Of a stretch of 56,182 nucleotides of DNA, positions 7,913-45,993 are shown in pieces (positions within the stretch are counted from its first letter, which is position 1; every line of letters begins with the position of its first letter). Made by a program: the position numbers and the translations under genes. The stretch lies in the IMG/VR virus record IMGVR_UViG_3300024265_000058, positions 1 through 56,182 of that record; one strand, 5' to 3'. The stretch is from a virus. Below the pieces are notes generated by a model. It saw nothing but the letters and a program-made list of their open reading frames with translations, made no database searches and was not told the origin of the DNA.

Positions 7913-8200
7913 GTGTCTCAAAAGCTGGCCGATCTGCCCAGTGTGCAGTGGCAAGTCGATAACTGGGATGAGATGCAGGACTTCATCAAGGATTTCGAGG
8001 CGCGCTGCATCCCTGACGGCGACAACCTGCTGCTGCAGGCATGGGGTGGCCTGAATACGGTGCTGCATCCCGGTGACTGCTTGGTGCTCCGGGATAACAG
8101 TGTCGGAATAATTCGAGTGCCGACCGAAGTCGATACGGCCGGCCCGCAGGGGCCGGCAGAGATTCAGACTGATAGCACTAAGCACTCAATGGCGAATTGA
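7913..8200 (+). CDS. Hypothetical protein, end of rightward early operon
   Basis: A 95-residue protein with a GTG start immediately after the preceding TAA. The centre is beta-rich (LVLRDNSVGIIRVPTEVD). Its 3' end overlaps the convergent XRE-type gene by 37 bases, so the two operons collide here without a visible terminator between them. Not recognised. Confidence 0.6.
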   Translation: MSQKLADLPSVQWQVDNWDEMQDFIKDFEARCIPDGDNLLLQAWGGLNTVLHPGDCLVLRDNSVGIIRVPTEVDTAGPQGPAEIQTDSTKHSMAN

Positions 8201-8397
8201 ACCGTGTAATCGAATTGGCGCTGACCGGACAGCCAGCGCCGAATGGTTCGCTCATCTACTCCAATTTTCCGCGCAAGCGCGGCCTGAGTGAGCCCTGTCG
8301 AGCCGATCAGCTCGGCAAGGTACTCAGGCCGCGGGTCATACTTTGAGGCGTCAGGTTTCACGCGGTTGCTGCCCCATTTTGTCCCACACTCCACCAT
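8164..8397 (-). CDS. XRE-family helix-turn-helix regulator
   Basis: A 77-residue protein. LIGSTGLTQAALARKIGVDERTIRRWLSGQ (about residues 30-59) is a Cro/CI-type helix-turn-helix. It is the last gene of the leftward accessory operon. A GTG 12 codons downstream is a possible alternative start giving 65 residues. It could regulate the divergent promoter at 14.45 kb or the early rightward operon, by analogy with other small XRE proteins; no direct evidence links it to a site. Confidence 0.8.
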   Translation of the reverse strand: MVECGTKWGSNRVKPDASKYDPRPEYLAELIGSTGLTQAALARKIGVDERTIRRWLSGQRQFDYTVQFAIECLVLSV

Positions 8398-8548
8398 TCA
8401 GGTAGTGAACTCGGGCCGCCGCTCGCGTCGTGCTGTCATGATCTGACTCGGCCTCGAATTTGCCATCAGGCTTATAGAATCCGACCGTCCATAGTCGGTG
8501 GCGCTCGCCGGCCTCGCGGAAGTCCTCGCTCAGGATGTAGATATACAT
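8351..8548 (-). CDS. Hypothetical small protein
   Basis: A 65-residue protein. ATG 8548 is preceded by GGGAGAACGTCA, a good ribosome site, and starts MYIYILSEDFREAGERHR. A strand followed by charged segments; no family recognised. It overlaps the zinc-ribbon gene upstream (19 bases) and the XRE gene downstream (47 bases). Confidence 0.65.
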   Translation of the reverse strand: MYIYILSEDFREAGERHRLWTVGFYKPDGKFEAESDHDSTTRAAARVHYLNGGVWDKMGQQPRET

Positions 8549-9483
8549 TGACGTTCTCCCGTGTCGATGTAGTTCTGACTGCAGGCTGAGTGCCCGCATT
8601 CAGGCCCGGACTGAGTGAATGGCTTGGCCTCTTTGACCTCGACCATGTAGCGGCTCTTGCCCTTGTCGCCATCGTTGCCGTCATTGTCGCATTGCGGGCA
8701 CCACACCGTATCGAGCGGGCCCTCGTCATTGATGACTGAGCAACCGTTTACCTCGACCCATGCACTGGTCTGGATATCCGTGCAGCCGCAGTCCGGGCAG
8801 GCCTGCAGCGGACCCTGGCCGGCCGATCCGTCGCTACCGGACTGGCGCAACCTGTACAGCAATGCGATCACTTCCAGCATTTCCTCGGTATCGAGTCGCA
8901 CCCTCACATCGCCCACAGAATTGAAGTCGATGCTGACCGTCTCGCCGGGGAGCTCGCGCATAAAAAAGCCCCTGTGACCGTTCGGCTTGTACTCGTTGCC
9001 AGTGGCCTCTGCGAGCCGCCTAAGCCCGCTCTGCGTCCGATCCTCGTAGGTCTGGGCCTCGGTAGCCCGCTCGGTCAACCGCTTATAGATGCGGTCATAC
9101 TCGGGAAACAGCCGCTCGATCTGCTTGGCGACCAGCCGCGTCTCGCGGTCATAGGCGGCCGTGCATTGCGGCAGTGCTTCCTTTGGATTCCACAGGTTGC
9201 TGATGTACTGGGTCTGCTTGTTGCCGCCCGCGTCGGTGTAGCTCGGCCAGCCGCAGGCCTTGAACTCGATGCGCTGCTTGCTGGCGGCCAGATAGGGGCC
9301 GGCGCTGAACTGCCTGCCGCTATCCTTCTCGCTGATTATGCGCCAGCACGGAAAGCCGTCGCCGTCATAGGCGTCGAGCTGCCAGTCACCGGGCAGGTCA
9401 TCCATGACAGCCTCTAAGATCGCGGCGAATTCATCGGCCCGCCGCTTGGCCTTTTGTTGGTACTCGTTGAGTCCTTCAATCAC
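8530..9483 (-). CDS. Hypothetical protein with C-terminal zinc ribbon
   Basis: A 317-residue protein. The GTG at 9483 follows CTACGAGGAGAAAAATC; an open extension upstream only translates the structured RNA element and is rejected. The N-terminal 200 residues are mixed helix and strand with many aromatics. The C-terminal part carries CPDCGCTD and WCPQCDND, a four-cysteine ribbon, then further Cys and His. It may be a nucleic-acid-binding protein. No family recognised. Confidence 0.65.
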   Translation of the reverse strand: MIEGLNEYQQKAKRRADEFAAILEAVMDDLPGDWQLDAYDGDGFPCWRIISEKDSGRQFSAGPYLAASKQRIEFKACGWPSYTDAGGNKQTQYISNLWNPKEALPQCTAAYDRETRLVAKQIERLFPEYDRIYKRLTERATEAQTYEDRTQSGLRRLAEATGNEYKPNGHRGFFMRELPGETVSIDFNSVGDVRVRLDTEEMLEVIALLYRLRQSGSDGSAGQGPLQACPDCGCTDIQTSAWVEVNGCSVINDEGPLDTVWCPQCDNDGNDGDKGKSRYMVEVKEAKPFTQSGPECGHSACSQNYIDTGERQCISTS

Positions 9484-9490
9484 GATTTTT

Positions 9491-9545
9491 CTCCTCGTAG
9501 TGGGATGATTCCCGTGCAGCCGCCTCTCACCCGGCTGCCCGTGCG
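9491..9545 (-). ncRNA. Structured intergenic element, copy A
   Basis: In transcript sense: a CACGGGCAGCCG stem with loop GGTGAGAGG closed by CGGCTGC, then CACGGGAATCATCCC (a GGGA/TCCC hairpin), then the ribosome site CTACGAGGAG. It begins right after the TGA of the upstream gene and ends at the ribosome site of the next. Three other copies lie at similar junctions. Confidence 0.7.
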
Positions 9546-9722
9546 TCACCGTTTCGTGTAGATATTCAGGCCGATAATCGCGTCGGTGCCTTCGATTGCC
9601 TTGTTGCCTGAGCTGGTCGCGATGATGATGGTTTTGCCGCTCTTGCTCGGGCCGTGATCCTTGCTCAGGTCCACGGTTATCGTCAGCTTGTTGCCGTCCA
9701 CTTTCAGGGCTGCATTTTTCAT
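9546..9722 (-). CDS. Hypothetical small protein
   Basis: A 58-residue protein starting MKNAALKVDGNKLTITVDL, predicted as beta strands with a Gly/Ser/Lys turn (SKSGKTIIIATSSGNKAIEG). CTACGAGGAG lies 7 bases before the ATG. Similar short proteins with this strand pattern occur in many phages, with no known role. It is flanked by two copies of the structured element. Confidence 0.7.
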   Translation of the reverse strand: MKNAALKVDGNKLTITVDLSKDHGPSKSGKTIIIATSSGNKAIEGTDAIIGLNIYTKR

Positions 9723-9729
9723 GGTCGTG

Positions 9730-9787
9730 CTCCTCGTAGTTGCGGGATGATTCCCGTGCAGCCCGCTCTGACCGGGCTGCCCGTGAG
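9730..9787 (-). ncRNA. Structured intergenic element, copy B
   Basis: In transcript sense: GGGCAGCCCG, loop GTCAGAG, CGGGCTGCACGGG, then the GGGAATCATCCC hairpin and the CTACGAGGAG ribosome site. Relative to copy A, a G:C pair near the loop is rearranged while pairing is kept. It starts immediately after the stop of the small membrane-protein gene. Confidence 0.7.
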
Positions 9788-9898
9788 TCACCGCCGCCGC
9801 GGCTTGATGTAGTCCAGATATATCGCCAGCCCGAGCGGGACCAGCACTGAGACGGCCGTCAATCCGGCCAGTATGTAGGCGAGCATTGGGTCAATCAT
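9788..9898 (-). CDS. Small single-pass membrane protein
   Basis: A 36-residue protein, MIDPMLAYILAGLTAVSVLV..., with one membrane helix (about residues 4-28) and the basic end YIKPRRR, suggesting a cytoplasmic C-terminus. ATG overlaps the upstream stop as ATGA. The stop is followed at once by structured element B. Role unknown. Confidence 0.6.
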   Translation of the reverse strand: MIDPMLAYILAGLTAVSVLVPLGLAIYLDYIKPRRR

Positions 9899-10113
9899 GT
9901 GTCTCCTCCTCCGAATAGGTCGCCTGTGACCTGATCCATCTGGGCCCTGAATCGCCGGCGATCCTCGCCGCTGGCGACGGCCTCGGCGCTGACGCCGTCA
10001 CTGCTCAGCCACGCGGCCTCGCATTCAACGCACTGGTGCGCCGTAGTTCCCGGCATCGGGGGCCTGAGCTCCTGCTCGTAGGTGTCCGAGCTGCAGCATT
10101 CCGGGCAGTTCAT
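9895..10113 (-). CDS. Small zinc-ribbon protein
   Basis: A 72-residue protein. MNCPECCSSDTYEQE and HQCVECEAAW give two CxxC pairs typical of a zinc ribbon. The start overlaps the upstream stop as TGATG, and an upstream extension lies inside the neighbouring gene, so ATG 10113 is chosen. A nucleic-acid or protein adaptor role is possible. Confidence 0.65.
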   Translation of the reverse strand: MNCPECCSSDTYEQELRPPMPGTTAHQCVECEAAWLSSDGVSAEAVASGEDRRRFRAQMDQVTGDLFGGGDT

Positions 10114-10571
10114 CAGATGGCCCTCACTATGGTTGCCGGCTCGCAGTGCAGGATCGCCGCCACTTCCTTGGCGAATCCACACAGCTCATCGAAGTCACTA
10201 AAAGCCGAATCACAGACCTCGACAATTTCCTCGTCGGCGGCAAATTTCCCGCCGAAAACCGTGTGATAGTCCGAGCAGCATTCGAGGCTGAATCGCCACG
10301 GCAGTACCTCCTCGGGCGTACACCTGACCAGCCTGTAGATCATTCCATCCTCAAGCAGCTCGGCCCACTCGTTGACCAGCATCTCGGGCTTGGGCTCGAA
10401 TGCCTCAGTCTGTGACGGCAGGCCCAGGCTCTCGCGAATCCACGCCATTGCGGTGCAGATATCGTCCCAGTCATCCTCGATGATGTGCTGGCTGTCCTGA
10501 TGCGCATGCAGCGCGTCCCAGATGACCTCAAGCCAACTCTCGGTGTTGCCCTTGGTGACATCGACGCTCAT
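10113..10571 (-). CDS. Hypothetical acidic protein
   Basis: A 152-residue, strongly acidic protein rich in Trp and Glu, probably helical, with a few Cys (LECCSDY, ILHCEP). Start and stop both overlap the neighbouring genes. No family recognised. Highly acidic early phage proteins are sometimes DNA mimics, but nothing specific supports that here. Confidence 0.65.
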   Translation of the reverse strand: MSVDVTKGNTESWLEVIWDALHAHQDSQHIIEDDWDDICTAMAWIRESLGLPSQTEAFEPKPEMLVNEWAELLEDGMIYRLVRCTPEEVLPWRFSLECCSDYHTVFGGKFAADEEIVEVCDSAFSDFDELCGFAKEVAAILHCEPATIVRAI

Positions 10572-10843
10572 GATTCCTCCCGGACGGCCTCTAAGCCTTT
10601 GCGGTTCAGGCTGCCGTCATCGTTGTAGGTGCGGGGGTCGGCTGCAGGGACATGCCAGCCAAACATCGAGCCGGCAAACATGGCCTCACGCTGCGGCACG
10701 GTGACGCCGATCTCCGCGTTAAGCGCGTCAACGTCCTGCATGCCGAGCGGCCTGTAGCCGGATTCTCCTCGGGTGATCTTGATGGCCTCGCCGGTGCTCG
10801 GCAGGCTTGCGATGCAATACTCCGGTAATGTGTTGCTTGTCAT
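10568..10843 (-). CDS. Hypothetical protein
   Basis: A 91-residue protein with the leader CTACGAGGAGCACCATC before its ATG. The centre (PLGMQDVDALNAEIGVTVPQREAM) is helical; the end contains DPRTYNDDGSLNRKG. This gene pair has no copy of the structured element: the ribosome site follows directly after the PAPS-reductase gene's stop. Confidence 0.65.
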   Translation of the reverse strand: MTSNTLPEYCIASLPSTGEAIKITRGESGYRPLGMQDVDALNAEIGVTVPQREAMFAGSMFGWHVPAADPRTYNDDGSLNRKGLEAVREES

Positions 10844-10860
10844 GATGGTGCTCCTCGTAG

Positions 10861-11676
10861 TTAAAACAGCTCACGCTGCTGATTGACCAGTCGCTCAGCA
10901 AGCGAGCCGGCCGCGAACATGGTGAAACCTGTACGCTCCTCCATGTCGATGTATTTCTGTAGTAATTCGGGGTTCTGGCGCGCTGCATTCCTGAGATCGC
11001 CGTCGCATCCCATGATGCAAAATTGACAGCTCAGGCGCTTGTTGCCGTCGCCATAGGCGTGGTGCTGTGTCATGCCCTTGGCGGCGACGTAGTCGAACAC
11101 GCGGCGCTCTTTCCAATCCTTGATAGGTAGCCAGTCCCAGACCTTGCGGCCCAGTGTCGGGGCTGTGAATCGGTCATTAAGTTTCAGCGCCGGCTTTTTG
11201 GCCCGGTTGTCGGACTCCTCGGCGCGCAGGCCCATGACATTGACCGCCTCGGTGATGCCGCGGCGTTTCATGTCGGCCTTGATGAATTTGTCGATGGGGC
11301 CCACTTTCAGGTCACTGGTGCAGGTCCGATATTTCGGGCTCGGCCAGCAGGGTTTATCCGGGTAGAGCTCATGCCGGCGCTCGACCATGCTTAGGAAATC
11401 CTTCGGGCTGCCGTCTTTGAATATGGCGCTGACCACTGTCAGCGGGTGCTCGATGTTGGCCTCGATGTGCTCGACAATGCCATCCCACTCGACCTCGCCC
11501 AGATTGGCGTGGACTACTGTGATCCGGTCAGCCGGCACCAGCTCGCAGACCGTGGCATAGGTGGCAAGCGAATCCTTGCCACCTGAATGACTCACGTAGA
11601 AGTGAGCGCCGTCGATCAGTCGCCCGAGCTCACCGGTCGCCCGGTTAGCTGGACCCTGGCCTTTGCTGGTTGTCAT
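10861..11676 (-). CDS. PAPS-reductase / PP-loop ATP pyrophosphatase family protein
   Basis: A 271-residue protein. The PP-loop motif SGGKDS lies at residues 31-36; downstream are KPCWPSPKYRTCTSDLKVGPI and a late CQFCIMGC cluster, the Cys arrangement of the phosphoadenosine phosphosulfate reductase superfamily. Members either reduce activated sulfate or, as in DndC, take part in sulfur modification of DNA. ATG 11676 overlaps the unknown upstream gene as ATGA. With a methyltransferase-like gene two genes upstream, a DNA-modification role is attractive but unproven. Confidence 0.85.
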   Translation of the reverse strand: MTTSKGQGPANRATGELGRLIDGAHFYVSHSGGKDSLATYATVCELVPADRITVVHANLGEVEWDGIVEHIEANIEHPLTVVSAIFKDGSPKDFLSMVERRHELYPDKPCWPSPKYRTCTSDLKVGPIDKFIKADMKRRGITEAVNVMGLRAEESDNRAKKPALKLNDRFTAPTLGRKVWDWLPIKDWKERRVFDYVAAKGMTQHHAYGDGNKRLSCQFCIMGCDGDLRNAARQNPELLQKYIDMEERTGFTMFAAGSLAERLVNQQRELF

Positions 11677-12365
11677 GCTGCGGCCTCCGGGAATGGGATG
11701 CGCACCGTGCTGCGCTGGCCCATACCGATCCAGTCGGTCATCTCGGCGGCACGGATCGCGGCCAGCCATTTGCGGGGCACCCGGTTGTAGCTGACGGCGG
11801 TGTAGGCGCCGACCATCTCGGTGCCGATAGTCCGCTGAATCCTGAGCGCGCTGCTCGGCACGGCCGGGTGACGGTACTGACCAGTGCGCCGGTTGTAGCC
11901 CCACTGGCTGGTAGTTCCCGGCATCTCGTACTCAAGGATAATCTCGTCGCCAAGTGTGGCCAGTACGCAACCCTCACGCTCGGCCTGATTGGCCCATACC
12001 TCGATGCTGTCATTGGCCTGCCAGAATGTATCGGGGCTGCCGTTCAGGCGCTCGAATATCCAAGCGATCAGGTCGGTGATGTAGAGATTGGAGATCGGCC
12101 CGCGATGCTGTTCCTCGTCGCCGTGCCTGTGGTCCGGTTTCTGGAACTCAATCAGCACGTTCCTGCCGATCTCCTCGCCGGGGAAAAGGGGCAGCCCGGT
12201 GCGCTTGTTGACCCGGACCTCGTCAATCTTGTACGGCCTGATGGCGACAATACCGTGCTCGGTCTGCAGGTGCTCGGTGTGGCCGGCGTCAAGGGCGCGG
12301 CTTATGTCCCGGTATTCGGCTCGCCTGTAGCTGCCGTCTTTCCGTTTCAGTGTGTCAATGCTCAT
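11673..12365 (-). CDS. Unknown partner of the PAPS-reductase-like protein
   Basis: A 230-residue protein that I do not recognise. It is rich in aromatic and charged residues (IRPYKIDEVRVNKRTGLPLFPGEE; SNLYITDLIAWIFERL), suggesting a compact mixed fold. It is coupled to the PAPS-reductase-like gene by an ATGA overlap and preceded by structured element C, so the two proteins probably act together. The leader is CTACGAGGTAACACT. Confidence 0.65.
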   Translation of the reverse strand: MSIDTLKRKDGSYRRAEYRDISRALDAGHTEHLQTEHGIVAIRPYKIDEVRVNKRTGLPLFPGEEIGRNVLIEFQKPDHRHGDEEQHRGPISNLYITDLIAWIFERLNGSPDTFWQANDSIEVWANQAEREGCVLATLGDEIILEYEMPGTTSQWGYNRRTGQYRHPAVPSSALRIQRTIGTEMVGAYTAVSYNRVPRKWLAAIRAAEMTDWIGMGQRSTVRIPFPEAAA

Positions 12366-12371
12366 AGTGTT

Positions 12372-12432
12372 ACCTCGTAGGTTGTGGGATGTGTCCCGTG
12401 CAGCCGCCTGTCACCCGGCTGCCCGTGAAACA
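12372..12432 (-). ncRNA. Structured intergenic element, copy C
   Basis: In transcript sense: CACGGGCAGCCG, loop GGTGACAGG, CGGCTGCACGGG, then GGGACACATCCC and CTACGAGG. The small second hairpin keeps its GGGA/TCCC stem with a changed loop. It lies just after the TGA of the methyltransferase-like gene. Confidence 0.7.
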
Positions 12433-13380
12433 TCAGAATAGTGCCAGTTGCGTTACCTCCCTGAGTGCTGCCGGCGGCGCCGTGATGGCGGCGCTGATGC
12501 CGCCCCAAGTGTCAGCCATCGCCTCGGCAATATTGTCGAATGTCTTGCTGCGCAGTTTCCAGCGATCAGGTCCGGGGCTCTTGTTGTCAGCGCCGCAGAG
12601 TGACTGATTCGCCCATCGATTCACCATCTTGCCGTTGTAGCGGACCCGGCGCGGCTTGATCCATTCGGACTCAGGCGGCACGGGTAGCAGCGGCAGATTC
12701 TCAAGCCACAGGCCGGTGTTCTTGCTGGCGTCGTGGCCAAATTGGTAGGGCTGCACGTACTGGCTGGCTGGCCGGATCGCGGTGCCGATCCTGCTCACCG
12801 GGTTCTCGATTGCCTGCCTCGGGATCGGTGCGGCCATCAGGTCCCTGACGAATTCGAGCGCCTCGTCAGAATTGTGCTGGCGCTCGGGATAGTTGGCGTC
12901 GTGTTTCGGCTGGCATCGCCACAGTTGACTGGCGGCGAGGTACTGACATGGCGGGTGGGCGATCATCAGGTCAAAGCCGTCGCCCAGAATGTCTCTCACA
13001 TCGCCCTGATAGTGCTGTCCCGGCGTCTCGGTCGGTAGCAGGTCGCAGGACATGGCCGAGTGACCGCGAGCCGTCAGCGCGTCCCTGACGGTGCCCGAGA
13101 ATTCACAGGCGACCAGTACGCGGCTGAGCATGTAGCCGGCTGCCTGTGCCCGCTCGATGGCCGTCACGATATCGCCGCCGTAGTTCTCAAGGTCGGCGCC
13201 GGGGCGCTGGCTGTGGACTGCCTGAGCGGCGAGCTCGCCGGTATCGAGGTAGTCGTCAGCGACGGCGTCACCGCGTCGGATATTGAGCATCTGGGAATCC
13301 GTCAGCTCGGCCCGGACGGCCGCGGAAAAGTCCGCGGCCAGCCGGGTAACGTCGAGCGCCGGCAGCTTGATAATGCTCAC
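12433..13380 (-). CDS. Cytosine-methyltransferase-like protein
   Basis: A 315-residue protein with a GTG start overlapping the previous stop as GTGA. Residues 88-97 (VLVACEFSGT) resemble AdoMet motif I; CDLLPTETPG follows; HPPCQYLAAS places Pro-Cys-Gln at 144-146, the catalytic PCQ motif of C5-cytosine methyltransferases. ENPVSRIG resembles the ENV motif. The fold is shorter than a standard enzyme and has an extra helical 85-residue N-terminus. It may modify phage DNA against restriction; activity is uncertain. Confidence 0.75.
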   Translation of the reverse strand: MSIIKLPALDVTRLAADFSAAVRAELTDSQMLNIRRGDAVADDYLDTGELAAQAVHSQRPGADLENYGGDIVTAIERAQAAGYMLSRVLVACEFSGTVRDALTARGHSAMSCDLLPTETPGQHYQGDVRDILGDGFDLMIAHPPCQYLAASQLWRCQPKHDANYPERQHNSDEALEFVRDLMAAPIPRQAIENPVSRIGTAIRPASQYVQPYQFGHDASKNTGLWLENLPLLPVPPESEWIKPRRVRYNGKMVNRWANQSLCGADNKSPGPDRWKLRSKTFDNIAEAMADTWGGISAAITAPPAALREVTQLALF

Positions 13381-13793
13381 GCTCGGCCCTCCATACCCTT
13401 GACGGTCATGGCGACGATTTCCTCGCCGGCCACGGCGCTCTGCATGGCAGTCTTGAGAATGCCCTGATAGTTGGACAAGCAGCGGTAGCCGTAGCCGTCC
13501 ATCGTCTCAGCGCCGGGGCGCACATCTCGGTGCGCTGCGCTGCAGTTCATCAGCTTGGCCTCGATGCTGCCCTTGCTGCGGTCGGCCAGTTTGCCGGCGT
13601 AGTCGCTGGCGTCTCCGGTGTAATCCTCGTCGCCGGGTTTTGGTGTGCCCTGAGCGGCCCGGATCATGTGGGCCTTGTACTTGGCGCCCGGTGCTGTGGT
13701 GGCGATTTCGAGCATCTGGAAATAGAGCTCACAGATGGCTCGGTTCTCGTCGTCGGTCCACGGCCCGAGTGTTGCTTTCTTGGTTGTGGTCAT
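13377..13793 (-). CDS. Hypothetical protein
   Basis: A 138-residue protein. ATG 13793 follows GGAGGCAAACCC. It opens TKKATLGPWTDDENRAICELY, a SANT/Myb-like or helical motif, with a later SKGSIEAKLMNCSA segment of the type seen in HTH-containing phage proteins. A DNA-binding role is possible. It lies between structured element D and the methyltransferase-like gene. Confidence 0.6.
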   Translation of the reverse strand: MTTTKKATLGPWTDDENRAICELYFQMLEIATTAPGAKYKAHMIRAAQGTPKPGDEDYTGDASDYAGKLADRSKGSIEAKLMNCSAAHRDVRPGAETMDGYGYRCLSNYQGILKTAMQSAVAGEEIVAMTVKGMEGRA

Positions 13794-13800
13794 GGGTTTG

Positions 13801-13857
13801 CCTCCATTGTTGTGGGATGATTCCCGTGCTGCCGTCTCTGACACGGCAGCCCGTGAG
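13801..13857 (-). ncRNA. Structured intergenic element, copy D
   Basis: In transcript sense: CACGGGCTGCCGT, loop GTCAGAG, ACGGCAGCACGGG, then GGGAATCATCCC. The main stem differs from copy A at several positions on both sides (GCTGCCGT/ACGGCAGC against GCAGCCG/CGGCTGC), which is compensatory change. The ribosome site here is GGAGG instead of CTACGAGGAG. Confidence 0.7.
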
Positions 13858-14289
13858 TCACACCTCGAAACGGTCGTGGACCGGGATCGGTGAGGTGACT
13901 GGGAAACGGCTGTCACTGGTCGAGATGTAGTGACCGCCAAACATGCCGCCGCGCCGTGGCCTGCCGTCAGCGTCAACCGGTCGAGCGACCACATTGACAA
14001 TGCGGTGGCGATCCACGTAGCCCTGCGGATTGCGCAGCACTTCAAAGTCGCCCACTGGCCGGGTATCAATCCCGAGCTCTTTCAGCCATGCCGGCTTGGC
14101 AACGCTGAGCTGACCGGCCTGCAGTGCAGGCTCGAAATCGTACTCAAGGATAACCGCCGGGGCGTCGTCGCTCGGCTCGAATGGGCCGCGGATTCCGTCA
14201 CCGATCAGGGTGACATGGCGGCGCCCAGATGTGACGCCGTTGGCAGTGCAGTCCGTACCGTGGACTGAAACGTGTAGGCCATTAGTCAT
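13858..14289 (-). CDS. Hypothetical protein
   Basis: A 143-residue protein, probably beta-rich, with Gly and Pro turns (HVTLIGDGIRGPFEPSDD; GMFGGHYISTSDSRFP). The leader is CTACGAGGAGAAAAGCC. No family recognised. It follows the small membrane-protein gene, whose stop it overlaps by a few bases. Confidence 0.65.
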   Translation of the reverse strand: MTNGLHVSVHGTDCTANGVTSGRRHVTLIGDGIRGPFEPSDDAPAVILEYDFEPALQAGQLSVAKPAWLKELGIDTRPVGDFEVLRNPQGYVDRHRIVNVVARPVDADGRPRRGGMFGGHYISTSDSRFPVTSPIPVHDRFEV

Positions 14290-14419
14290 GGCTTTTCTCC
14301 TCGTAGTGCTGTGATCGGATCACAGCGGAATGGTGGCGGTAATATGCCGCCTGCTTGATGACCAGAATGACGGCCCAGAAAAGGCCGCCGGTCAAAGTGA
14401 TGTAGTCGAGTGCTGTCAT
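14282..14419 (-). CDS. Small membrane protein, first gene of the leftward operon
   Basis: A 45-residue protein, MTALDYITLTGGLFWAVILVI..., with one membrane helix (about residues 5-25) and a basic or polar tail. GGACGGCAAACCC precedes the ATG, similar to the leader of the 13793 gene. Its 3' half overlaps a 19-bp palindrome and the next gene's ribosome site, so its tail sequence is shaped by regulatory DNA. Confidence 0.55.
   Translation of the reverse strand: MTALDYITLTGGLFWAVILVIKQAAYYRHHSAVIRSQHYEEKSHD
14308..14326. promoter_or_regulatory. 19-bp perfect palindrome, candidate operator
   Basis: GCTGTGATCGGATCACAGC is a perfect palindrome about the central G. Its 13-bp core GTGATCGGATCAC recurs between a terminator and a start codon at 17024-17036, and a degenerate form lies at 54244-54260. 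It sits just before the ribosome site of the 14289 gene. A protein-binding site or a short RNA hairpin would both fit. Confidence 0.45.
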
Positions 14420-14454
14420 GGGTTTGCCGTCCAAGTTGTGTGAAATCGTCTCCG

Positions 14455-14483
14455 ACGATACCGGACCATTGGCCCGGTGTCAA
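14455..14483 (-). promoter_or_regulatory. Strong sigma-70-type promoter with operator in the spacer
   Basis: On the minus strand, TTGACA (14483-14478) and TATCGT (14460-14455) are separated by exactly 17 bases. The spacer CCGGGCCAATGGTCCGG is a near-perfect palindrome, ideally placed for repression. A second palindrome, ATCGTC-TCC-GACGAT (14445-14459), covers the -10 and start site. It would drive the leftward operon from 14419 to 8164. Confidence 0.75.
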
Positions 14484-14539
14484 GCACAACAGGGACCGGG
14501 TAAGATGCAGCCTTCTGCAGGCAATGGATACAGCAGGCA

Positions 14540-15145
14540 ATGAGCGAACCTACCCAAGCGAACAGCGCCCCAAGTCTCCCAGTTTCCCGCCCTCGTCTCC
14601 GGGGCGCGCTGGTCAAGTTCAATGACACGGTAGCGGACCAGATATGTGGGCGCATGGCAGAGGGGGAGACACTGCGGCAGATATGCAGGGACGCAGCCAT
14701 GCCGGCAAGGTCAACGGTATACCGGTGGCTGAGCAGAAATCCTGACTTCGCGGACCAGTACGCGCTGGCGCGGGAGTGCCTCGTTGCTGCATGGGCCGAT
14801 GAAATCATTGACATTGCTGACGATGGGACTACCGACTATGTCGAGAAGGTAGGCCGCAACGGCACTGAGTACATGGCCGTGGATCAGGAGCACATTCAGC
14901 GCAGCCGGCTGCGTGTGGATACCCGGCGCTGGCTGCTGTCCAAGCTGAACCCCGGCCAGTACGGCGATCACATGGAGGTCGAGCACACCGGGGCAGTCGA
15001 TCACCGACACCATATAAGCGACACCGAGAAGGTACGGCGCTTGGCCCTGTTCCTGCTGCAGTCACCCGGCGGCAGCACTGTCATCGATGGCCACGCCGAG
15101 CCGATCCCTGCTGAACTGGAGCCCGACCAGCCTGACGATGAGTGA
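14540..15145 (+). CDS. Terminase small subunit
   Basis: A 201-residue protein. An N-terminal helix-turn-helix (ETLRQICRDAAMPARSTVYRWLSRNPDF, about residues 43-70) is followed by a helical centre with EEYMAVDQEH...RLRVDTRRWLLSKLNPGQYGD-type sequence, the hallmark of phage small terminases that recognise packaging sites. It is the first late gene, divergent from the leftward operon, and the large subunit lies 2 kb downstream. Confidence 0.85.
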   Translation: MSEPTQANSAPSLPVSRPRLRGALVKFNDTVADQICGRMAEGETLRQICRDAAMPARSTVYRWLSRNPDFADQYALARECLVAAWADEIIDIADDGTTDYVEKVGRNGTEYMAVDQEHIQRSRLRVDTRRWLLSKLNPGQYGDHMEVEHTGAVDHRHHISDTEKVRRLALFLLQSPGGSTVIDGHAEPIPAELEPDQPDDE

Positions 15146-17023: not shown

Positions 17024-17036
17024 GTGATCGGATCAC
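17024..17036. promoter_or_regulatory. 13-bp palindrome between ribosome site and start codon
   Basis: GTGATCGGATCAC, the core of the 19-bp palindrome at 14308. GGAG lies directly before it and the ATG of the next small gene 3 bases after it. A hairpin would bring GGAG closer to the ATG; protein binding is the alternative. Confidence 0.4.
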
Positions 17037-36855: not shown

Positions 36856-39800
36856 ATGGCGCTCAAGGACTGTTTCAAACAGCTAGGGAAAGCGATCAGC
36901 TCGGAGGACCGGGCTCAGATCGAGTCCGATGTGGCTGCTGGCATGTCCGAGCATGATGCGGTTATAGCGTCCCTTCGCGATTCCAGTCAGGATTTAATCG
37001 CCATCGTTGAGCGAATCGAGGAGGCCGGCGGCAATGTGCAGCGGCGCCCGAATCCTCTTGTGGATGCCCGCGAAATCCAGATGCGCAACCTCGACAAGCT
37101 GCAAAAAGAGCGCGCCACGGTACAGGAGAAAATGGCGAAAACCCTCGAGACTCTGCAGGAGATCGAGGCCATCGAGAATTTTGTCGCCAACTACCCGGAT
37201 CGCCGCGGTTTCTTTGTTGCCGAGCAGATCGATCTGGCCAATGACCAGCACTTGACCGCCATACTCAGCGCGATGCTGTTCGATCCAAACCAGCGTGAAA
37301 TCCTTGCGGCCGGCAGACTGGGGCTCAAGGGCGATACACCGGTCGCACTGGTCGGCAGTTTCCGGGCGATGCAGGACAAGGCATTCGGACAGCATGCCAA
37401 GCTGCGCGCCTATCAGGAACAGAATGCCAGCATCGATGACCGAATTAAAACGGTGTTCCACGGGGAACGCCGCAACCCGGTGCTCGATCAGCGTGGTGAC
37501 TACATCATCATGGAGCCGATCAAGCCGGCTGGCCCGGACCAGGGCGACCTGTTTTCCGATGCTGATGTACCCCAGTCACAGAAGGCCGTCGAGGCCAAGG
37601 CCAATTACAAGATACGGGTCAGGAATGAGGAGACTGGCACCCTGCCCACCGGGCTCGATATCGTTAAGAGCGCCGAGGACGCCGCGCACGTTATGGCGCC
37701 GATACGGCGCAATGCTCAGGAGGGCATGTGGGCACTGGTGCTGGATGAGAATGACCAAGTTATCAGCGCGATCATTCACACCAAGGGCACCTATGACGGC
37801 ACCAGCGTTTTTCCGAGTGTAATGGCCGGGGCGATCCTGACCACACCGGGCGCGAAAAAGGTCTGGTTTGCCCACAATCATCCGTCAGGCGTATCAGCGC
37901 CGTCGCAAGCCGACGAGCGCATCACCAAGAAGCTGGTTGCCACGCTCACGGATACTGATATCGAGATCGCCGGCCATGTGGTGATCGGTGCCGGCGGTCA
38001 GGGTTTCAGTGAGCTCGGCAATAACGGTCTGCCAGTAGGGCAGGTAGCAAGGCCGATCAGGGCGCTGCCACGGCGCAAGCAGGTATCGATCACCGAGCGC
38101 CGCCTGCGAGCCAATGTCAATGACGTTGAGGCCCTGACCAGTCCATCAGCTACCGAGCGACTGCTCAATGAGATGGACCCGCCCGAGGGCATCATGATCC
38201 TGAACAATCGCCACAAGCCCTTGGGCTATCTGGCGATGTCACCGGATGAGATGCGATCACTCAGGACCACCGGGGGCCACCGGCGGCTACTGCAGGCATT
38301 CAGCGAGCTCGGTGGTGCGGCAGGCTTTATCATCACCAAGGCCGACGATCCGGCGATCACCGAGAATCTGGGCCACTGGGCTGGCAGTAACGATTTCAGG
38401 ATGCTCGATCATTTTTACACCGATGCTGCCGGCAACCTGAAAAGCAAGTCATCTCAGGGCGCGGGCCCGCCGGGGCGTGAGGGCACCTACTACCAGTCGC
38501 AAGAGCCCCGGCTGCAGGCGATTCATAACCTGACTTCCGAGAATCTCGAGTTCTCCGACAATCTCGGTGGCCTTGCTGTGCCATCGATTGCGATTGCGCC
38601 CGAGGGCAAAGACCTGCAGGGCTTTGGTGAGATCACCCTGATCGGTACTCGCGAGCTCGGTGATCCGCAGCAGGTCCCACTATTCGATGCCGACGCCTAC
38701 GCCATCAGGTTCCCGAAAGCGCAGTACAAGGAGGCCAAGCACGACACCGTGCAGGAGCTCCTCGATGAGGTCGAGGAGTGGGCCATGCGCATCGCCGGCT
38801 CGAAATACAGCGGCCTGCCTGATTACCTGTGGGAGTACATGCGCCGGCACCCGGACCCTGACCGCCTGATCCAGCACATGCTGACCGACAACACCGCGAA
38901 AGCGTGGTTTCTGGCTGAGCGGCATGGCGAGAAACCCGAGCCCACGCTCGATGATGTAATGCCGCGTTATACGTGGGGGTGGCACGATGCCATTGTCAAT
39001 TTTTTCGAGGGCGACCTGAGCGCCGAGGAGCTCACCTGGGAGCACTCGCGGCGCATTGCCCACATGAAAAAAGCTGGCCGGGTCGTCACCAAGGCCATAC
39101 GTGAGCATTTCATCAAGAAAATCGGCGGGCGGCCGACGACCGAGGGGCAGGTTATACGCGCCGAAAAAGTGTATGCGCTGTCCCAAGAGTTCATAAATCG
39201 CGCCGGCATCTTTAACGAGGATGGCAGCCTGACCATTCAGGCCTACGACCGCCTGAAAGCCGATGTGGCGCGCAAGGGCAGCCAGAACATCAATGACGTT
39301 GATACGCAGACCTATCTGGATTCCCGGATCGAAAGGCTCGGCGCCACGAATCAGTTCAAGGTCTGGGCGCAGCAGAAGGTACTGGGCCGCATGGGCGAGC
39401 CGCGTATCAAGATCGGCAACCGGTGGCAGCCTTACACGCTGGCCAATGTGGTGCGCAAAATGAAGCGCAAGCTCAGGGGCACCGAGACGTTCTTTCCGAG
39501 CGAGGGGCTGATTAGGGCCAAGGCCGCCGCCAGAATCAAAACCATGCCCGAAGCACGGCAGCGGGCGATTGAGCAGATCGGCACACCCGAGCAGGTCGAT
39601 GCAGCTCGGCAGGAAGCGCAGCGCATGGTTTTCGACTGGACGACGCAGATGGCGCCATTCTGGCGATACCCTACGTCCAGCACTGATGTATTCGACCGGT
39701 CCCTCGATGCAGCGCGTGAAGCGATTGCCTACACCGCACAAGCCATGCACCGCATGAATGCTGAGAAGGCCCTCGAGGTCGGCTTAAAGCGCGCCGGGTT

Positions 39801-42800
39801 CGATGGTCCGTTTCCTGACTGGCTGATCTCCGAGGGCCTCGATGCGATTGCCGCGTTCATGCAGGCGCCAGTACCGTATTTCGAGGCCAAGCCGCAGCGG
39901 GCGGTGATGCTGGATGAGTTTGCAGGAGCGGTGATCCCGGTGGACGCCAGCCCTGCCACGCGGGCGATCCTCGCCAAGCACGGCATTCCGTTCAAGGAAT
40001 ATCAGGGTGGCCGCGAGGGCCCACAGAATCGCACCGCCGCCGTGGATGCGCTGCAGCAGCAGCTCAGTGATGCCGGCGAGCGCACCCTGTTCCAGTCCGA
40101 GATCGGGTTCACATCCGGGCTCGAGAATGCGGCCCGTGCCATGCCTCGCGAGAAGGGCAACGCCGCCGACATGATCGGTACGCTCAAGAAAATGCCGGGG
40201 GTCACTAAGGCCGAGCTCGAGGCGCTCGATGTGGAGGCCTGGATGAATGCCAAGGGCACCGTGACCAAGGACGAGCTGACCGCCTACATCATGGCCAATG
40301 GCATCGAAGTGATCGAGACACAGCTCGGCGGTGAGCACATTCCGACACCTGAGCTGACCGCAGAACCAAACAGCGATTTCGAGACTTACGAGAAGTACGG
40401 CATGGAGGATATCTGGAATGACGAGTATCTCTACAGCCGCACATCCATCTGGGATGTAACTGATTTTTATTCAGATTTCACATTCCAGATGATCGAGGAT
40501 CGCGATGCCGGCAATATCTCGGTGACGCCTGATGACGGCCAGACATGGCTCGATATCGATGCGCCGATCAATGAGCAGACACAGGCGCATGGCGAGGATG
40601 CCATCGAAAAATACATCCTCGAGAATGCCCCTGAGCAGAAGTTTGACCGGATTGCCGAGAACGTAGGCCAGCAGATTCCCGGCGGCACCAATTTCCGTGA
40701 GATCGTCCTGCACATGCCACCGGTGCCGCAGGAGGGCAGGCCATTTCAGTGGAATGATTTTGAGGGCGGCCACCACGATGAGAACAACATCATCGCGTTT
40801 TTCTTGGCGACTGATCGTGAGGGCCCGAATGGTGAGCGCATCCTGTTCCTCGAGGAGGTCCAGTCCGACTGGCACCAGCGCGGCAAGCGCTTTGGCTATC
40901 GCAGGGACCTCCTGACAATCCCTGACTACAGGATCATGGAGACTGAGAATCAATGGGTGGCTGTCGATGCCGAGACAGGGAGCCCGATCTCATACGGCAC
41001 CCTGGACAGCGGGCAGCCGCGATATATCTCGGTCGGCAAGGGTGTGGTCGGTCATGGCGAGATGGACAACGTCTCGGCCGAGGATGTTTTACGCGCTCAG
41101 GCGGCGGCAAGGGCCTACATCTCGAATCACCTGAACACCCTGCGCAGCGAAAGGGCTCGCGCTGACGTTGACAAAGTCCCGAAAGGTCCATTCAGCGGCA
41201 ATGCGTGGGTCACACTGGCCATGAAACGTGCCATCAGGCTGGCGGCCGAGCAGGGCTACGACCAGCTCGCATGGTCAACCGGTGCGATCATCAACAACCG
41301 CGGCGGCTTTGCCACCGAGATTGACGAGGTCAGTATCGATCCGCGCAGGGCTCAGGTGTCGGCCTACGACAAAGAGGGCATCCTGATCGAGACTGACACC
41401 TACAACGATTCCGACCTGATTGAATACATTGGGCAGGAGAATTTCGACAAGCTGCAGACGCAGATTCAGGAGCATGCCAATCGTTACGACATCCTTGGCG
41501 GGGTCGAGGCTGACCTTGGCAATGAGAGCCCGACCATGATCTCGTATGCGGAGCAGCCGCTCGATAGTCAGCTCACCAGACTCATCATCAGCGATGGGCC
41601 GACTGCAGCCGCGGAGTTCCTGAAAAACGAGGCCGAGGCCGGCGATCTGTTTATGGCTGTCGATGAAAATGGTGAGCTCTATCGCGACCGCCTGAGCGGC
41701 GATATCCTCGTCTCCAAAACTCGAGCTTTTCTGAGCGAGTACATCGAAAATGAGATGTACGACGATGCAAACAACCACCCTCGCCTGACTAACATGGGCT
41801 ATACGTTCATGAGCAAGCGCGGCAGGGCGATGCTCCAGCACTACGACAAGGCAATGGTCAACCTGACCAACAAGGCGGTGCGCAAGCTCGATCCCAAGGC
41901 CAAGGTTAATAGGTTCGGGCAGCAGCTCGAGGACCCTGACAAGGCCATTAAAATAGCGAGTCTGCAAACTCAATACCTGAGCGCCAGCAATCAGGCCACT
42001 GCACTTGCCCGTGGCGGCCGGCATTCAGAATCGATGCGCCAGCGTAACCGGGCCTATGAGCTGGAGCGTCAGATACGTGAGGCCGATGCCCAGACTGGCG
42101 GCGGCCCTGCGATCCACGTACTCGATATCACCGAGCCGGTGCGCGAGGCAGCGATGCTCGGGCAAACGCTATTTCAGGATACGCACCGTGGCTCGATCAC
42201 TTTCGATCTCGAGAATCGTGCCGTCATCCGGCTCGGTCAGGCATCGAACCTGTCCACGTTCCTGCATGAGTCAGGCCACCTGTATCTCGAGATCATGGGC
42301 GACCTGGCTGAGCAGGCAGTCGGCCCGCGGCAGGTTATTGGCGACTATCAGAAAATCCTCGAATACCTTGGCGTCAACAGTCGCCGGGAGATCACCCGCG
42401 AGCACCATGAAAAGTGGGCCAAGGCATTCGAGGTTTATCTCAAAGAGGGCAAGGCGCCCAGTCAGGATATGCAGGGCATATTCGCAGCATTCAGCCAGTG
42501 GCTCACCAAGGTCTACGAGCGACTGCAGACCCTTGCCGGCGTCGAGCTCACTGACGATATCCGTGGCGTCATGGACCGCATGCTGGCGACTGATCTGGCG
42601 ATCACTAATGCTGAGCAGACGCAGGAATTCCGGCCGATGTACTCGACTGCCGAAGCGATGGGCGTCAGTCAGGAGCGCTTTGAGGTCTACAAGGATCTAA
42701 TTACCCGAGCACATCAGGATGCGTTCGACAAGGAGGCCCGCAAGATGCTGGCCTATCTCGAGCGCGAGGCCAAGGTGGTGTGGCAGACCGAGCGCAAGAA

Positions 42801-45800
42801 GGTGCTGGCCGAGGTCCAAGCAGAGATATGGGCTCAGCCGGTGTACCGGGCGCTGGCCATGTTCCAGCGTGGTGAGAATCCTGATGGCACCACACCTGAG
42901 CGCGCCATCTTCAAGCTCGACCGCGATGACCTGATCGCCCGTTACGGCAAGGATTTCATCAAGGGCCTGCCCAAGCCGTGGGTCTACACGATCAAGCACG
43001 GCGTCGGTGTCAATGCCGATGTGGCCGCAACCATCTTTGGATTCTCCAGCGCTGACGAGATGATTCAGGAGATGATGCGCGCCGGCAGGATGGATGCCGT
43101 GATCGAGGCCGAGACTGATACTCGCATGCGCCAGCGATTCCCTGATCCGCTGGTCGATGGCACCCTGGCCGCCGATGCGGTGACTTCCGTGCATAACGAG
43201 AAACGCGCTCAGTTGCTCGCTGCCGAGCTCCGGGCCCTCAGAGTGCAGATGCGCAAGGACCGCAAGATCGTCTCAGCAACCGAGCGTGAGTCAGCCAGAA
43301 CGGATCGTGAAGCAAGGGCGGCGAATGCAGGCATGCTGCCCAGTCGTGGCGAGCTCGCGATCATCAAGAAGCTGGTCAGTGACACCATCGATGCCATGCG
43401 CATCCGGGATGTGAACCCGAATAAGTACCGGGTCGCTGAGCAGAAGGCAGGCCGCAAAGCCTTTGAGGCCAATGGCAAGGGTGACTATGAAACGGCCTAC
43501 GCCGAGAAGCTCAAGCAGATTCGCAATCATGAGCTGTTCCGTGCTGCCGTCCGGGCCAAGGAGGAAGCCGGCAGAACGCAGAAATACCTCAAGAAATTCG
43601 AGTCAAAGACGGTGCAGCGCCGGCTTGGCAAGTCCGGGATGCTGGATCAGATACTTGCGGTCATCGAGGGCATGGATTTCCGCACCGTGTCACTGGCTCA
43701 GGTAGATCGCGATGCCGCTATGGCAGAGATGCTGCAGGCTGTTGAGGATGGTCGGCTGGTCGTGCCGCCTGCCACCCTGAACAAACTGCGCAACATGGGC
43801 ACCAACTGGAAAGATTTTACGGTTGATGAGTTCCGTGACATACGCAACATCGTGCGCCAGCTCGAGCATCAGGCCAAGCGAATGGCCGAGGGCGTGGTCA
43901 ACGGCGAGAAGGTACTGCTGCAGGACGCGGTCAATGACGTAGCCGATAGCATCCTCGAGAATAATAAATTCATCCCGGCCGGCATCAGCGAGCCGACACT
44001 GGGCGAGAAGGGCAAGCGATCACTCAAGCAGGGTGTTGCGTCCTGGCTGCGTCCGGGCGCGATTGCACGGGTGCTCGATCAGTCAGGATTCGGTGCGCTC
44101 ACGCGCCGCATCATCGTGCCGATCCGCAAGGCCTACTCTGAAAAACTGATTCCGGGCCTCAAGAAGGCTCAAAAGGATGTCTCGGAGATTTACCTCAAGC
44201 ACTACACCAAGGCCGAGCTCGGCAACATGCACAAAAAAGTATGGGTGGAGGCGATGGGCGAGAGCCTGTCCCTTGCCGACATGCTTTCAATCGCACTGAA
44301 CTGGGGCAATGCCGGCAACCGCTCCGCAATGCTCGGAGGCATCAAGCGTGACGGCTCGCCGGCCTATACCGAGCAGGGCATACAGGCGGTGCTGTCAATG
44401 CTGGATGCCAAGGATGTGGGATTCATCAATGATGTCTGGGCATACCTCGATTCCTACTGGCCAGCGCTGAGTGAGGCTGAGCAACGGCGCCGCGGCATCG
44501 CGCCGCAGAAAGTGGAAGCCTTGCCGTTCACATTCAGGGGTAAAAATAATCAGGAGCTCACGGCCAAGGGCGGCTATTACCCACTGAAATATGACCGCCG
44601 GCACTCCGAGCGCATCAAGGATGTCGAGCTCGAGGATTTATACAAGAAAATGGGCAACGGTGTATTCATCACTGCCCAGACCCGAGCCGGATCGACATTC
44701 GAGCGGGTGCAGAATCACGGCATGGTGGTGAAGCTAGGCCTGCACACCATCGACCTGCACCTGCGCGAGATCGTGCGGGACATTGCCATTGGCGATGAGG
44801 TCAATTTCATCAAGCGCCTGCTCAACGATAAGCAGGTCCGGGCGGCCTTCAATAACACCGGCAACGACACCTCGCTCGAGGCGCTCAACCTGTGGCTGAC
44901 TGATGCGGCCGTTGGTGAGCTGCCAGCCGAGGGCATTGCCGAGCAGAGCGTGGCATGGATTCGCACCGGGTTCGTCAAGGCCAAGCTCGGCTGGAATCTG
45001 ATGACCACGCTGCTGCAGTTCACGGGCATATTCCAGACCATTGCTGTGATTGGGACTCAGGCCTACGCTCGGGGCTTCGGCAAGTTCATGCAGAATCCTC
45101 GAGCGATGTATCGGTTCGTCATGGAGCAGTCGTCCTTTATGCATGCTCGCTATGTCGATTCGACCGCATTCGACAAGGACGTACTGGACACACAGGCGCA
45201 CCTGAATTCCGTATTCGGTGCTGCTCCGACCCGCTTCAAAACATGGTCGCTGGCAGCCTCGGCTACGTTTTTCTATCCGATTGCCAAGGCCCAGTCGATA
45301 GTCGATGTGTCAACCTGGCTCGGCGCCTACTGGAAAGGCCGCAACGTCAAGAACCTGAATGATGCTGACGCGATTATCTATGCCGATGTGCAGGTCGAGA
45401 ATGCACAAACGTCAGGTTTCTACTCGGATCGATCCGGGCTGGAGCGTGGCACTACCGGCACCAAGAAAAACCGGCAGTCTCAGTTCATACGCATCTGGAC
45501 TACCCTGATCTCCTACATGCTGGCCAAGAGCAACATTGCCTACGAGAAGGGCGTTTCATTGAAGCGCAAGCCAAGCCTCAAGGCGGCGGTGTACTTCGCG
45601 ACTGACCTGATGCTGCTCTACACGATGGAGGGCATTGCCGCTGCGATCATCTACAACCAGCTCCCGGATGAGGATGACGATGAATCGTGGGGTTGGTGGG
45701 TAGCCAAGGCGACGGTTGACTCCGCGGTGTCAGGCATCCCGTTCGTGCGCGAGATACCGGCGGCCCGGTTCGGCGGCGGCAACACGGCAATCGGATCACT

Positions 45801-45993
45801 GGGCGATGATATCTATTCGCTCGGGCAGCAGATCAATCAGGGCGAGATCGATGAGGCCCTGCTCAAAACTCTCAACAATGTTGGGGGTACACTATTTCAC
45901 TATCCGAGCAGCCAGACGAATCGGTTGCTGGATGCCTACTGGGCCGAGGGCGATGCAGAGTTTTACGAGTGGCTCACTGGCGTAAGGGACTAA
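36856..45993 (+). CDS. Giant polyvalent protein (JAB/RadC, zincin and other domains)
   Basis: A 3,045-residue protein, 16% of the genome. Residues about 270-390 are a RadC-like JAB domain with HNHPSG at 340-345 and S350/D353. A middle domain, about 1170-1720, includes FLEEVQSDWHQ (residues 1332-1342), a motif typical of large polyvalent proteins. A metallopeptidase-like HESGH lies at 1804-1808. Long helical regions follow, and the C-terminus has hydrophobic helices. Related giants in Bcep22-like phages and P1 DarB are packaged and injected to protect or prepare infection. That role is inferred. Confidence 0.85.
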   Translation: MALKDCFKQLGKAISSEDRAQIESDVAAGMSEHDAVIASLRDSSQDLIAIVERIEEAGGNVQRRPNPLVDAREIQMRNLDKLQKERATVQEKMAKTLETLQEIEAIENFVANYPDRRGFFVAEQIDLANDQHLTAILSAMLFDPNQREILAAGRLGLKGDTPVALVGSFRAMQDKAFGQHAKLRAYQEQNASIDDRIKTVFHGERRNPVLDQRGDYIIMEPIKPAGPDQGDLFSDADVPQSQKAVEAKANYKIRVRNEETGTLPTGLDIVKSAEDAAHVMAPIRRNAQEGMWALVLDENDQVISAIIHTKGTYDGTSVFPSVMAGAILTTPGAKKVWFAHNHPSGVSAPSQADERITKKLVATLTDTDIEIAGHVVIGAGGQGFSELGNNGLPVGQVARPIRALPRRKQVSITERRLRANVNDVEALTSPSATERLLNEMDPPEGIMILNNRHKPLGYLAMSPDEMRSLRTTGGHRRLLQAFSELGGAAGFIITKADDPAITENLGHWAGSNDFRMLDHFYTDAAGNLKSKSSQGAGPPGREGTYYQSQEPRLQAIHNLTSENLEFSDNLGGLAVPSIAIAPEGKDLQGFGEITLIGTRELGDPQQVPLFDADAYAIRFPKAQYKEAKHDTVQELLDEVEEWAMRIAGSKYSGLPDYLWEYMRRHPDPDRLIQHMLTDNTAKAWFLAERHGEKPEPTLDDVMPRYTWGWHDAIVNFFEGDLSAEELTWEHSRRIAHMKKAGRVVTKAIREHFIKKIGGRPTTEGQVIRAEKVYALSQEFINRAGIFNEDGSLTIQAYDRLKADVARKGSQNINDVDTQTYLDSRIERLGATNQFKVWAQQKVLGRMGEPRIKIGNRWQPYTLANVVRKMKRKLRGTETFFPSEGLIRAKAAARIKTMPEARQRAIEQIGTPEQVDAARQEAQRMVFDWTTQMAPFWRYPTSSTDVFDRSLDAAREAIAYTAQAMHRMNAEKALEVGLKRAGFDGPFPDWLISEGLDAIAAFMQAPVPYFEAKPQRAVMLDEFAGAVIPVDASPATRAILAKHGIPFKEYQGGREGPQNRTAAVDALQQQLSDAGERTLFQSEIGFTSGLENAARAMPREKGNAADMIGTLKKMPGVTKAELEALDVEAWMNAKGTVTKDELTAYIMANGIEVIETQLGGEHIPTPELTAEPNSDFETYEKYGMEDIWNDEYLYSRTSIWDVTDFYSDFTFQMIEDRDAGNISVTPDDGQTWLDIDAPINEQTQAHGEDAIEKYILENAPEQKFDRIAENVGQQIPGGTNFREIVLHMPPVPQEGRPFQWNDFEGGHHDENNIIAFFLATDREGPNGERILFLEEVQSDWHQRGKRFGYRRDLLTIPDYRIMETENQWVAVDAETGSPISYGTLDSGQPRYISVGKGVVGHGEMDNVSAEDVLRAQAAARAYISNHLNTLRSERARADVDKVPKGPFSGNAWVTLAMKRAIRLAAEQGYDQLAWSTGAIINNRGGFATEIDEVSIDPRRAQVSAYDKEGILIETDTYNDSDLIEYIGQENFDKLQTQIQEHANRYDILGGVEADLGNESPTMISYAEQPLDSQLTRLIISDGPTAAAEFLKNEAEAGDLFMAVDENGELYRDRLSGDILVSKTRAFLSEYIENEMYDDANNHPRLTNMGYTFMSKRGRAMLQHYDKAMVNLTNKAVRKLDPKAKVNRFGQQLEDPDKAIKIASLQTQYLSASNQATALARGGRHSESMRQRNRAYELERQIREADAQTGGGPAIHVLDITEPVREAAMLGQTLFQDTHRGSITFDLENRAVIRLGQASNLSTFLHESGHLYLEIMGDLAEQAVGPRQVIGDYQKILEYLGVNSRREITREHHEKWAKAFEVYLKEGKAPSQDMQGIFAAFSQWLTKVYERLQTLAGVELTDDIRGVMDRMLATDLAITNAEQTQEFRPMYSTAEAMGVSQERFEVYKDLITRAHQDAFDKEARKMLAYLEREAKVVWQTERKKVLAEVQAEIWAQPVYRALAMFQRGENPDGTTPERAIFKLDRDDLIARYGKDFIKGLPKPWVYTIKHGVGVNADVAATIFGFSSADEMIQEMMRAGRMDAVIEAETDTRMRQRFPDPLVDGTLAADAVTSVHNEKRAQLLAAELRALRVQMRKDRKIVSATERESARTDREARAANAGMLPSRGELAIIKKLVSDTIDAMRIRDVNPNKYRVAEQKAGRKAFEANGKGDYETAYAEKLKQIRNHELFRAAVRAKEEAGRTQKYLKKFESKTVQRRLGKSGMLDQILAVIEGMDFRTVSLAQVDRDAAMAEMLQAVEDGRLVVPPATLNKLRNMGTNWKDFTVDEFRDIRNIVRQLEHQAKRMAEGVVNGEKVLLQDAVNDVADSILENNKFIPAGISEPTLGEKGKRSLKQGVASWLRPGAIARVLDQSGFGALTRRIIVPIRKAYSEKLIPGLKKAQKDVSEIYLKHYTKAELGNMHKKVWVEAMGESLSLADMLSIALNWGNAGNRSAMLGGIKRDGSPAYTEQGIQAVLSMLDAKDVGFINDVWAYLDSYWPALSEAEQRRRGIAPQKVEALPFTFRGKNNQELTAKGGYYPLKYDRRHSERIKDVELEDLYKKMGNGVFITAQTRAGSTFERVQNHGMVVKLGLHTIDLHLREIVRDIAIGDEVNFIKRLLNDKQVRAAFNNTGNDTSLEALNLWLTDAAVGELPAEGIAEQSVAWIRTGFVKAKLGWNLMTTLLQFTGIFQTIAVIGTQAYARGFGKFMQNPRAMYRFVMEQSSFMHARYVDSTAFDKDVLDTQAHLNSVFGAAPTRFKTWSLAASATFFYPIAKAQSIVDVSTWLGAYWKGRNVKNLNDADAIIYADVQVENAQTSGFYSDRSGLERGTTGTKKNRQSQFIRIWTTLISYMLAKSNIAYEKGVSLKRKPSLKAAVYFATDLMLLYTMEGIAAAIIYNQLPDEDDDESWGWWVAKATVDSAVSGIPFVREIPAARFGGGNTAIGSLGDDIYSLGQQINQGEIDEALLKTLNNVGGTLFHYPSSQTNRLLDAYWAEGDAEFYEWLTGVRD

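Follow-up and report, generated by a model that had tools for sequence, protein, structure and literature searches.

A putative RNA hairpin family at gene-cassette borders in the leftward operon of a tailed phage

The leftward operon of a tailed phage carries, at four of its gene junctions, an element that is very probably an RNA hairpin, judged from the nucleotide sequences and the way they vary together. The element is a real, unnamed RNA family of one phage lineage, and the kind to which it belongs, the intercistronic mRNA punctuation hairpin, is already known, for example from phage T7. The window, which is the whole stretch of viral DNA analysed (56,182 nucleotides), is one entire IMG/VR virus record, from a phage with a recognisable terminase, head-tail adaptor, tail proteins and helicase. 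By analogy with T7, the element may act in the sense transcript as mRNA punctuation for the processing or insulation of gene cassettes; this is a tentative preference, held at somewhat less than an even chance.

All four copies lie on the minus strand, as do the genes around them, and each is situated between the stop codon of one gene and the ribosome site of the gene that follows. Copy 1 (13814..13863; long hairpin 13816-13862; loop GTCAGAG at 13836-13842; competing hairpin GGGA..TCCC at 13814-13825) follows a gene of 143 aa (family F11, 13858..14289), whose stop TGA at 13858-13860 is inside the 5' arm. Between copies 1 and 2 is the F1 gene (138 aa, 13377-13793), and the DNA methyltransferase gene F0 (12433..13380), which stops with TGA at 12433-12435, precedes copy 2 (12386..12435; loop GTGACAG; long hairpin 12388-12434). 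The F33 gene (230 aa, 11673..12365), seen in this phage group alone, comes after copy 2. Copy 3 (9744..9793) has the loop GTCAGAG in a long hairpin at 9746-9792, and the gene before it stops with TGA at 9788-9790; copy 4 (9502..9551) has GTGAGAG in a long hairpin at 9504-9550, with the preceding TGA at 9546-9548. The two enclose a one-gene cassette, the F13 gene (58 aa, 9546..9722), and copy 4 is followed by the F2 gene (320 aa, 8530..9492). The last gene of the operon (8164-8361, minus strand) encodes a small helix-turn-helix protein (HTH_3), after which there is a GC-rich hairpin near 8130-8160.

The four copies, with the stems, loops and positions ascribed to them in an earlier note, were confirmed. 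In the window, CACGGG-N(15-35)-CACGGG matches four times against 0.35 expected and GYSASAG-N11-GGANNYA four times against 0.11 expected; no shuffle reached four for either pattern. A model of the element, R2, was run on the window, on control phages and on the T7 early region. In the 56-kb window it recovers the four copies together with weak matches to the complement of the same sites; there were no further copies elsewhere in the window and none in the control phages at E up to 1. That no named family matches also holds: Rfam 15 gave no gathering-score match in the window or its relatives, and a permissive Rfam 15 scan of 8000-15000 returned only chance-level matches, at other places. Of the boundaries first drawn, at stop and ribosome site, the placement at gene junctions stands, and the 5' boundary should be moved to take in the stop codon, because pairing begins at or before it.

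Pattern and protein scans of viral contigs yielded about 20 further distinct copies (contigs L002-L006, L008, L010-L016 and L031-L032), and a distant 53-kb phage, L040, has four at consecutive gene junctions. Four copies alone would be thin evidence; the case is solid because 18 were aligned and because L040, with its four, and L032 contribute more. Other pattern matches (L007, L009, L036-L039, L041-L043, L047-L050 and L052-L058) were judged by fold and context to be chance. Against 50,697 cultured-phage records, neither a megablast search with the region nor a blastn search with the elements gave anything beyond chance, and a pattern scan and a gene-E profile found no recognisable copy in bacterial and archaeal genomes. 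At junctions that bear the element in other phages, two-hairpin structures of unrelated sequence are seen in L032 (8248-8310 and 10391-10430) and L031 (7719-7788). There is no clear sign of homogenisation within a genome, the identity being 0.83 within a genome, 0.79 at the same junction and 0.81 otherwise.

The main fold is a single irregular hairpin of approximately 20 positions: 8 bp, a G.A mismatch, 2 bp, an A.G mismatch, 2 bp, a further mismatch and 5 bp. The lower stem, which the first reading of the sequence had missed, is formed when the 5' arm that contains the upstream gene's stop codon pairs with CGGGAAUCAUC. Here, G-G-U-G-A pairs with U-C-A-U-C, U-C with G-A and C-G with C-G, with single mismatches in between. 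The A.G and G.A purine mismatches are invariant in all 18 close copies, and five of the 18 carry one more G.A mismatch within the lower stem.

The 18 copies align almost without gaps, and their stems change on both sides. In the upper stem A-U is replaced by U-A in 8 copies and G-C by C-G in 7, and G-C also becomes U-A or A-U. In the lower stem A-U becomes C-G, U-A or G.U, G-C becomes A-U or G.U, U-A becomes C-G, and another G-C becomes A-U. Across the long hairpin 94.4% of cells pair, compared with 84.4% in shuffled alignments, and eight pairs have two-sided changes against a shuffled mean of 4.5 (1 of 500 shuffles reaches eight). Its score is 0.297, versus 0.123 for shuffles and at most 0.048 when the structure is slid along the alignment. 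The lower stem alone has five double-change pairs against 1.6 in shuffles, and none of 500 shuffles reaches five. A further null, which preserves the tree and how many changes each column has undergone, was applied to approximately 1,100 column pairs. The top six are all facing positions of the long hairpin (five base pairs and the covarying mismatch 7-44); two column pairs have E < 0.01 and pair 12-39 has E = 0.11, and most lower-stem pairs are individually non-significant. The claim that stem covariation indicates RNA function is thus upheld with more copies aligned (n = 18), and in stronger form than it was made, the upper stem lying well above the tree-aware null.

The two-hairpin model proposed at first fares differently in its two parts: the first hairpin covaries, but the GGGA..UCCC hairpin, which could form in every close copy, has no pair changed on both sides in the 18-copy alignment, and the long single hairpin is better supported. 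When the 50-nt element is folded, the long fold is the more stable of the two in 17 of 18 copies, and in 16 of the 18 it is favoured over the two-hairpin fold by 2.3-5.3 kcal/mol. Once downstream sequence is added, the predicted minimum is the two-hairpin fold in copy 9785, in L010, in two copies of L032 and in one of L040. When the first 13 nt are kept single-stranded, which mimics a terminating ribosome, the second hairpin is predicted to form in 15 of 16 copies, among them copies of L031 and L032 in which its sequence is unrelated (CUGGC..GCCAG and GUGGA..UCCAC). These predictions suggest that GGGA..UCCC is a competing fold of a two-state element, the support being formability and not covariation. 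Two other pairings, the kissing of GUCA and UGAC loops and the pairing of the loop with the stop region, were inconsistent across the aligned copies and were rejected.

In 19 of 19 copies examined the 5' arm holds the upstream gene's stop codon or comes to within about 4 nt of that codon. At two different junctions, in L006_5196 and L012_1640, UGA is replaced by UAA and the C that faces it by U, while the window copies at those junctions (9502-9551 and 13814-13863, matched by flanking genes) retain UGA with C; compensation therefore extends to the stop codon itself. On the other side, 17-26 nt separate the end of the 3' arm from the following start codon in almost every copy. This distance, and the GAGGA ribosome site left unpaired outside the hairpin, make shielding of that site, one of three functions offered in the earlier note, unlikely.

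The likeness to T7 is one of layout. At the T7 0.4-0.5 junction, folding gives an irregular hairpin whose lower stem includes UGA and which ends about 18 nt before the next start, and we take this hairpin to be one of the RNase III cut sites. In both phages an irregular hairpin begins at the upstream stop and lies between genes of a polycistronic message, which in T7 is split at several sites; the early mRNA of T7, approximately 7 kb, is cut by RNase III at five of them (PMC4858673). The phage element is likewise irregular, about two helical turns long and placed between the stop and the next ribosome site, and the leftward operon is probably an early one. The likeness does not extend to sequence, as the T7 early region (L064) has no match to model R2 and no similarity to the element. 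The conserved heptaloop, the two purine mismatches and the competing second hairpin belong to the phage element, for which cleavage is proposed by analogy with T7.

Of the three functions first considered (processing, partial termination and shielding), processing is the one that we prefer. The hairpin would be a cis-acting punctuation mark between gene cassettes in the early-operon transcript, signalling endonucleolytic processing or 3'-end stabilisation in the manner of T7 RNase III sites between early genes. Each cassette would thereby gain its own mRNA ends and an expression independent of its neighbours. A host or phage protein may read the loop and the purine mismatches. A ribosome that terminates at the embedded stop would open the lower stem, the GGGA..UCCC hairpin could then form instead, and translation of the upstream gene would in this way gate the element.

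The heptaloop, consensus G(U/C)(C/G)A(G/C)AG, is conserved beyond the close copies. The L040 stems GAGCGUC/GGCGCUC and GGCCAUC/GGUGGCC share little with those of the window, and in both L040 and L032_9869 the loop and its exact 11-nt spacing to GGAAUYA are kept despite wholesale change of the stem. This loop-spacing pattern occurs four times in L040 and never in a reversed control. Since loop and spacing persist across unrelated stems, the loop is probably read by some factor. RNase III is not known to require loop conservation, and for this reason RNase III alone does not explain it.

These same features, the kept loop and spacing and the purine mismatches found in every close copy, would be expected if the element were bound by a phage or host RNA-binding protein through which the cassettes are repressed, activated or antiterminated as a regulon, with no processing involved. 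However, no such regulator or other candidate RNA-binding protein was recognised among the proteins scanned, the ribosome site is outside the paired region, and the element keeps to the upstream stop codon as well as to the downstream start. We consider this reading possible but rather unlikely. Doubtful, too, is a more elaborate proposal, in which the element is a bistable, stop-codon-embedding RNA family: a dedicated RNA-binding protein or nuclease would read the heptaloop, termination of the upstream ribosome would set the fold, and the portable border would keep swapped cassettes independently expressed.

A switch could also operate with no trans-acting factor. Here, refolding of the stop arm after termination would block re-initiation or coupling between cassettes, making the element a translational insulator. 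Such a role would suit the constant nearness of the stop, the second hairpin predicted in nearly every copy once the 5' end is open, even where its sequence is unrelated, and the arrangement of the genes, which overlap or abut within a cassette and have the element at cassette borders. It leaves the conserved loop unexplained, and the second hairpin lacks double compensation among close copies, so that we judge it improbable.

Gene-order comparison shows that one-gene units bounded by elements come and go between phages: with E for the element, the orders are F10-E-F2 in L059, F10-E-F28-E-F13-E-F2 in L006 and F10-36aa-E-F13-E-F2 in the window. In addition, the element precedes F12 in L006 and L003 and does not do so in the window. 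The early regions of phages are mosaics built from small genes that are exchanged, and the question is how a newcomer avoids disturbing the neighbours with which it shares a transcript. An RNA border that is conserved in structure, contains the stop and travels with cassettes is a testable object for studying how newcomer genes are expressed.

Exchanged genes bounded by elements in different phages might suggest a DNA-level element, with cassette exchange driven by a recombination site or by single-stranded DNA that folds in an attC-like or REP-like way. Integron attC sites are folded imperfect palindromes at the borders of gene cassettes, and to that extent are alike. The phage element, however, is without an integrase, and the attC core boxes RYYYAAC ... 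GTTRRRY are present in 0 of 25 copies. The window has no tyrosine recombinase or REP-type transposase; the Y1 transposase of REP/RAYT systems (PF01797) is absent from the record, although a partner elsewhere is possible. All copies are oriented along the transcript, and the sense strand has 18 G.U cells against 3 A.C cells, an excess that argues for RNA rather than DNA. Stem sequence varies among the copies of one genome, which is hard to square with binding of a single DNA-binding dimer. Ordinary homologous recombination at the repeats could give exchange as a side effect. A DNA-level role is very unlikely. Least probable of all is that the element grades expression along the operon as an intrinsic terminator or attenuator, the partial termination of the earlier note: the element is a GC-rich stem-loop between genes, but a T-run of at least 4 follows the stem in none of 25 copies and none of the four window copies is in the terminator-scan list.

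The start-associated sequences and their extended form (SAS/ESAS) in Cluster K mycobacteriophages, which have analogues among the Microbacterium phages of clusters EC and EF, offer a further comparison (PMC3203893, PMC7302621). They too are found in intergenic gaps before some, mostly non-structural, genes, and their presence at the same gene varies among relatives (PMC3203893, PMC7302621). According to their authors, there is little to support RNA hairpins in these repeats, and the ESAS of Adephagia hold putative SigA-like promoters (PMC3203893, PMC11373665). In contrast, the phage element keeps its pairing while the stem sequence changes; the covariation points to RNA here, unlike in the SAS/ESAS, which have no settled role. 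The 13-bp SAS GGGATAGGAGCCC, which in Cluster K is found at start codons, has no match with up to two mismatches, a promoter scan finds no SigA-like promoter in the four elements, and the same fold was not seen in the ESAS of AnnaSerena (conserved GTAGAG).

The leftward operon begins at one promoter, TTGACA-17-TATCGT, at 14455..14483 (minus strand), with a spacer palindrome GGGCCAATGGTCC; this promoter recurs in L014, L059/L060, L013 and L032. A second palindrome, ATCGTC-GGA-GACGAT (14445-14459, minus strand), overlaps its -10 and varies symmetrically, being CGTCGC..GCGACG in L014, ATCGTCC..GGACGAT in L013 and AAGGTC..GACCTT in L032, as expected for the operator of a dimeric repressor, which it may be. 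The palindrome GTGATCCGATCAC is present at 14311-14323 and 17024-17036 (minus strand), in one case directly preceding the 143-aa gene's ribosome site, and is possibly a second operator. Elsewhere in the window, the contig end (positions 1-58) is taken up by a 26-bp inverted repeat whose arms match perfectly across a 6-nt spacer, possibly an assembly fold-back, and a 3045-aa open reading frame (36856-45993, plus strand) lies among the structural genes.
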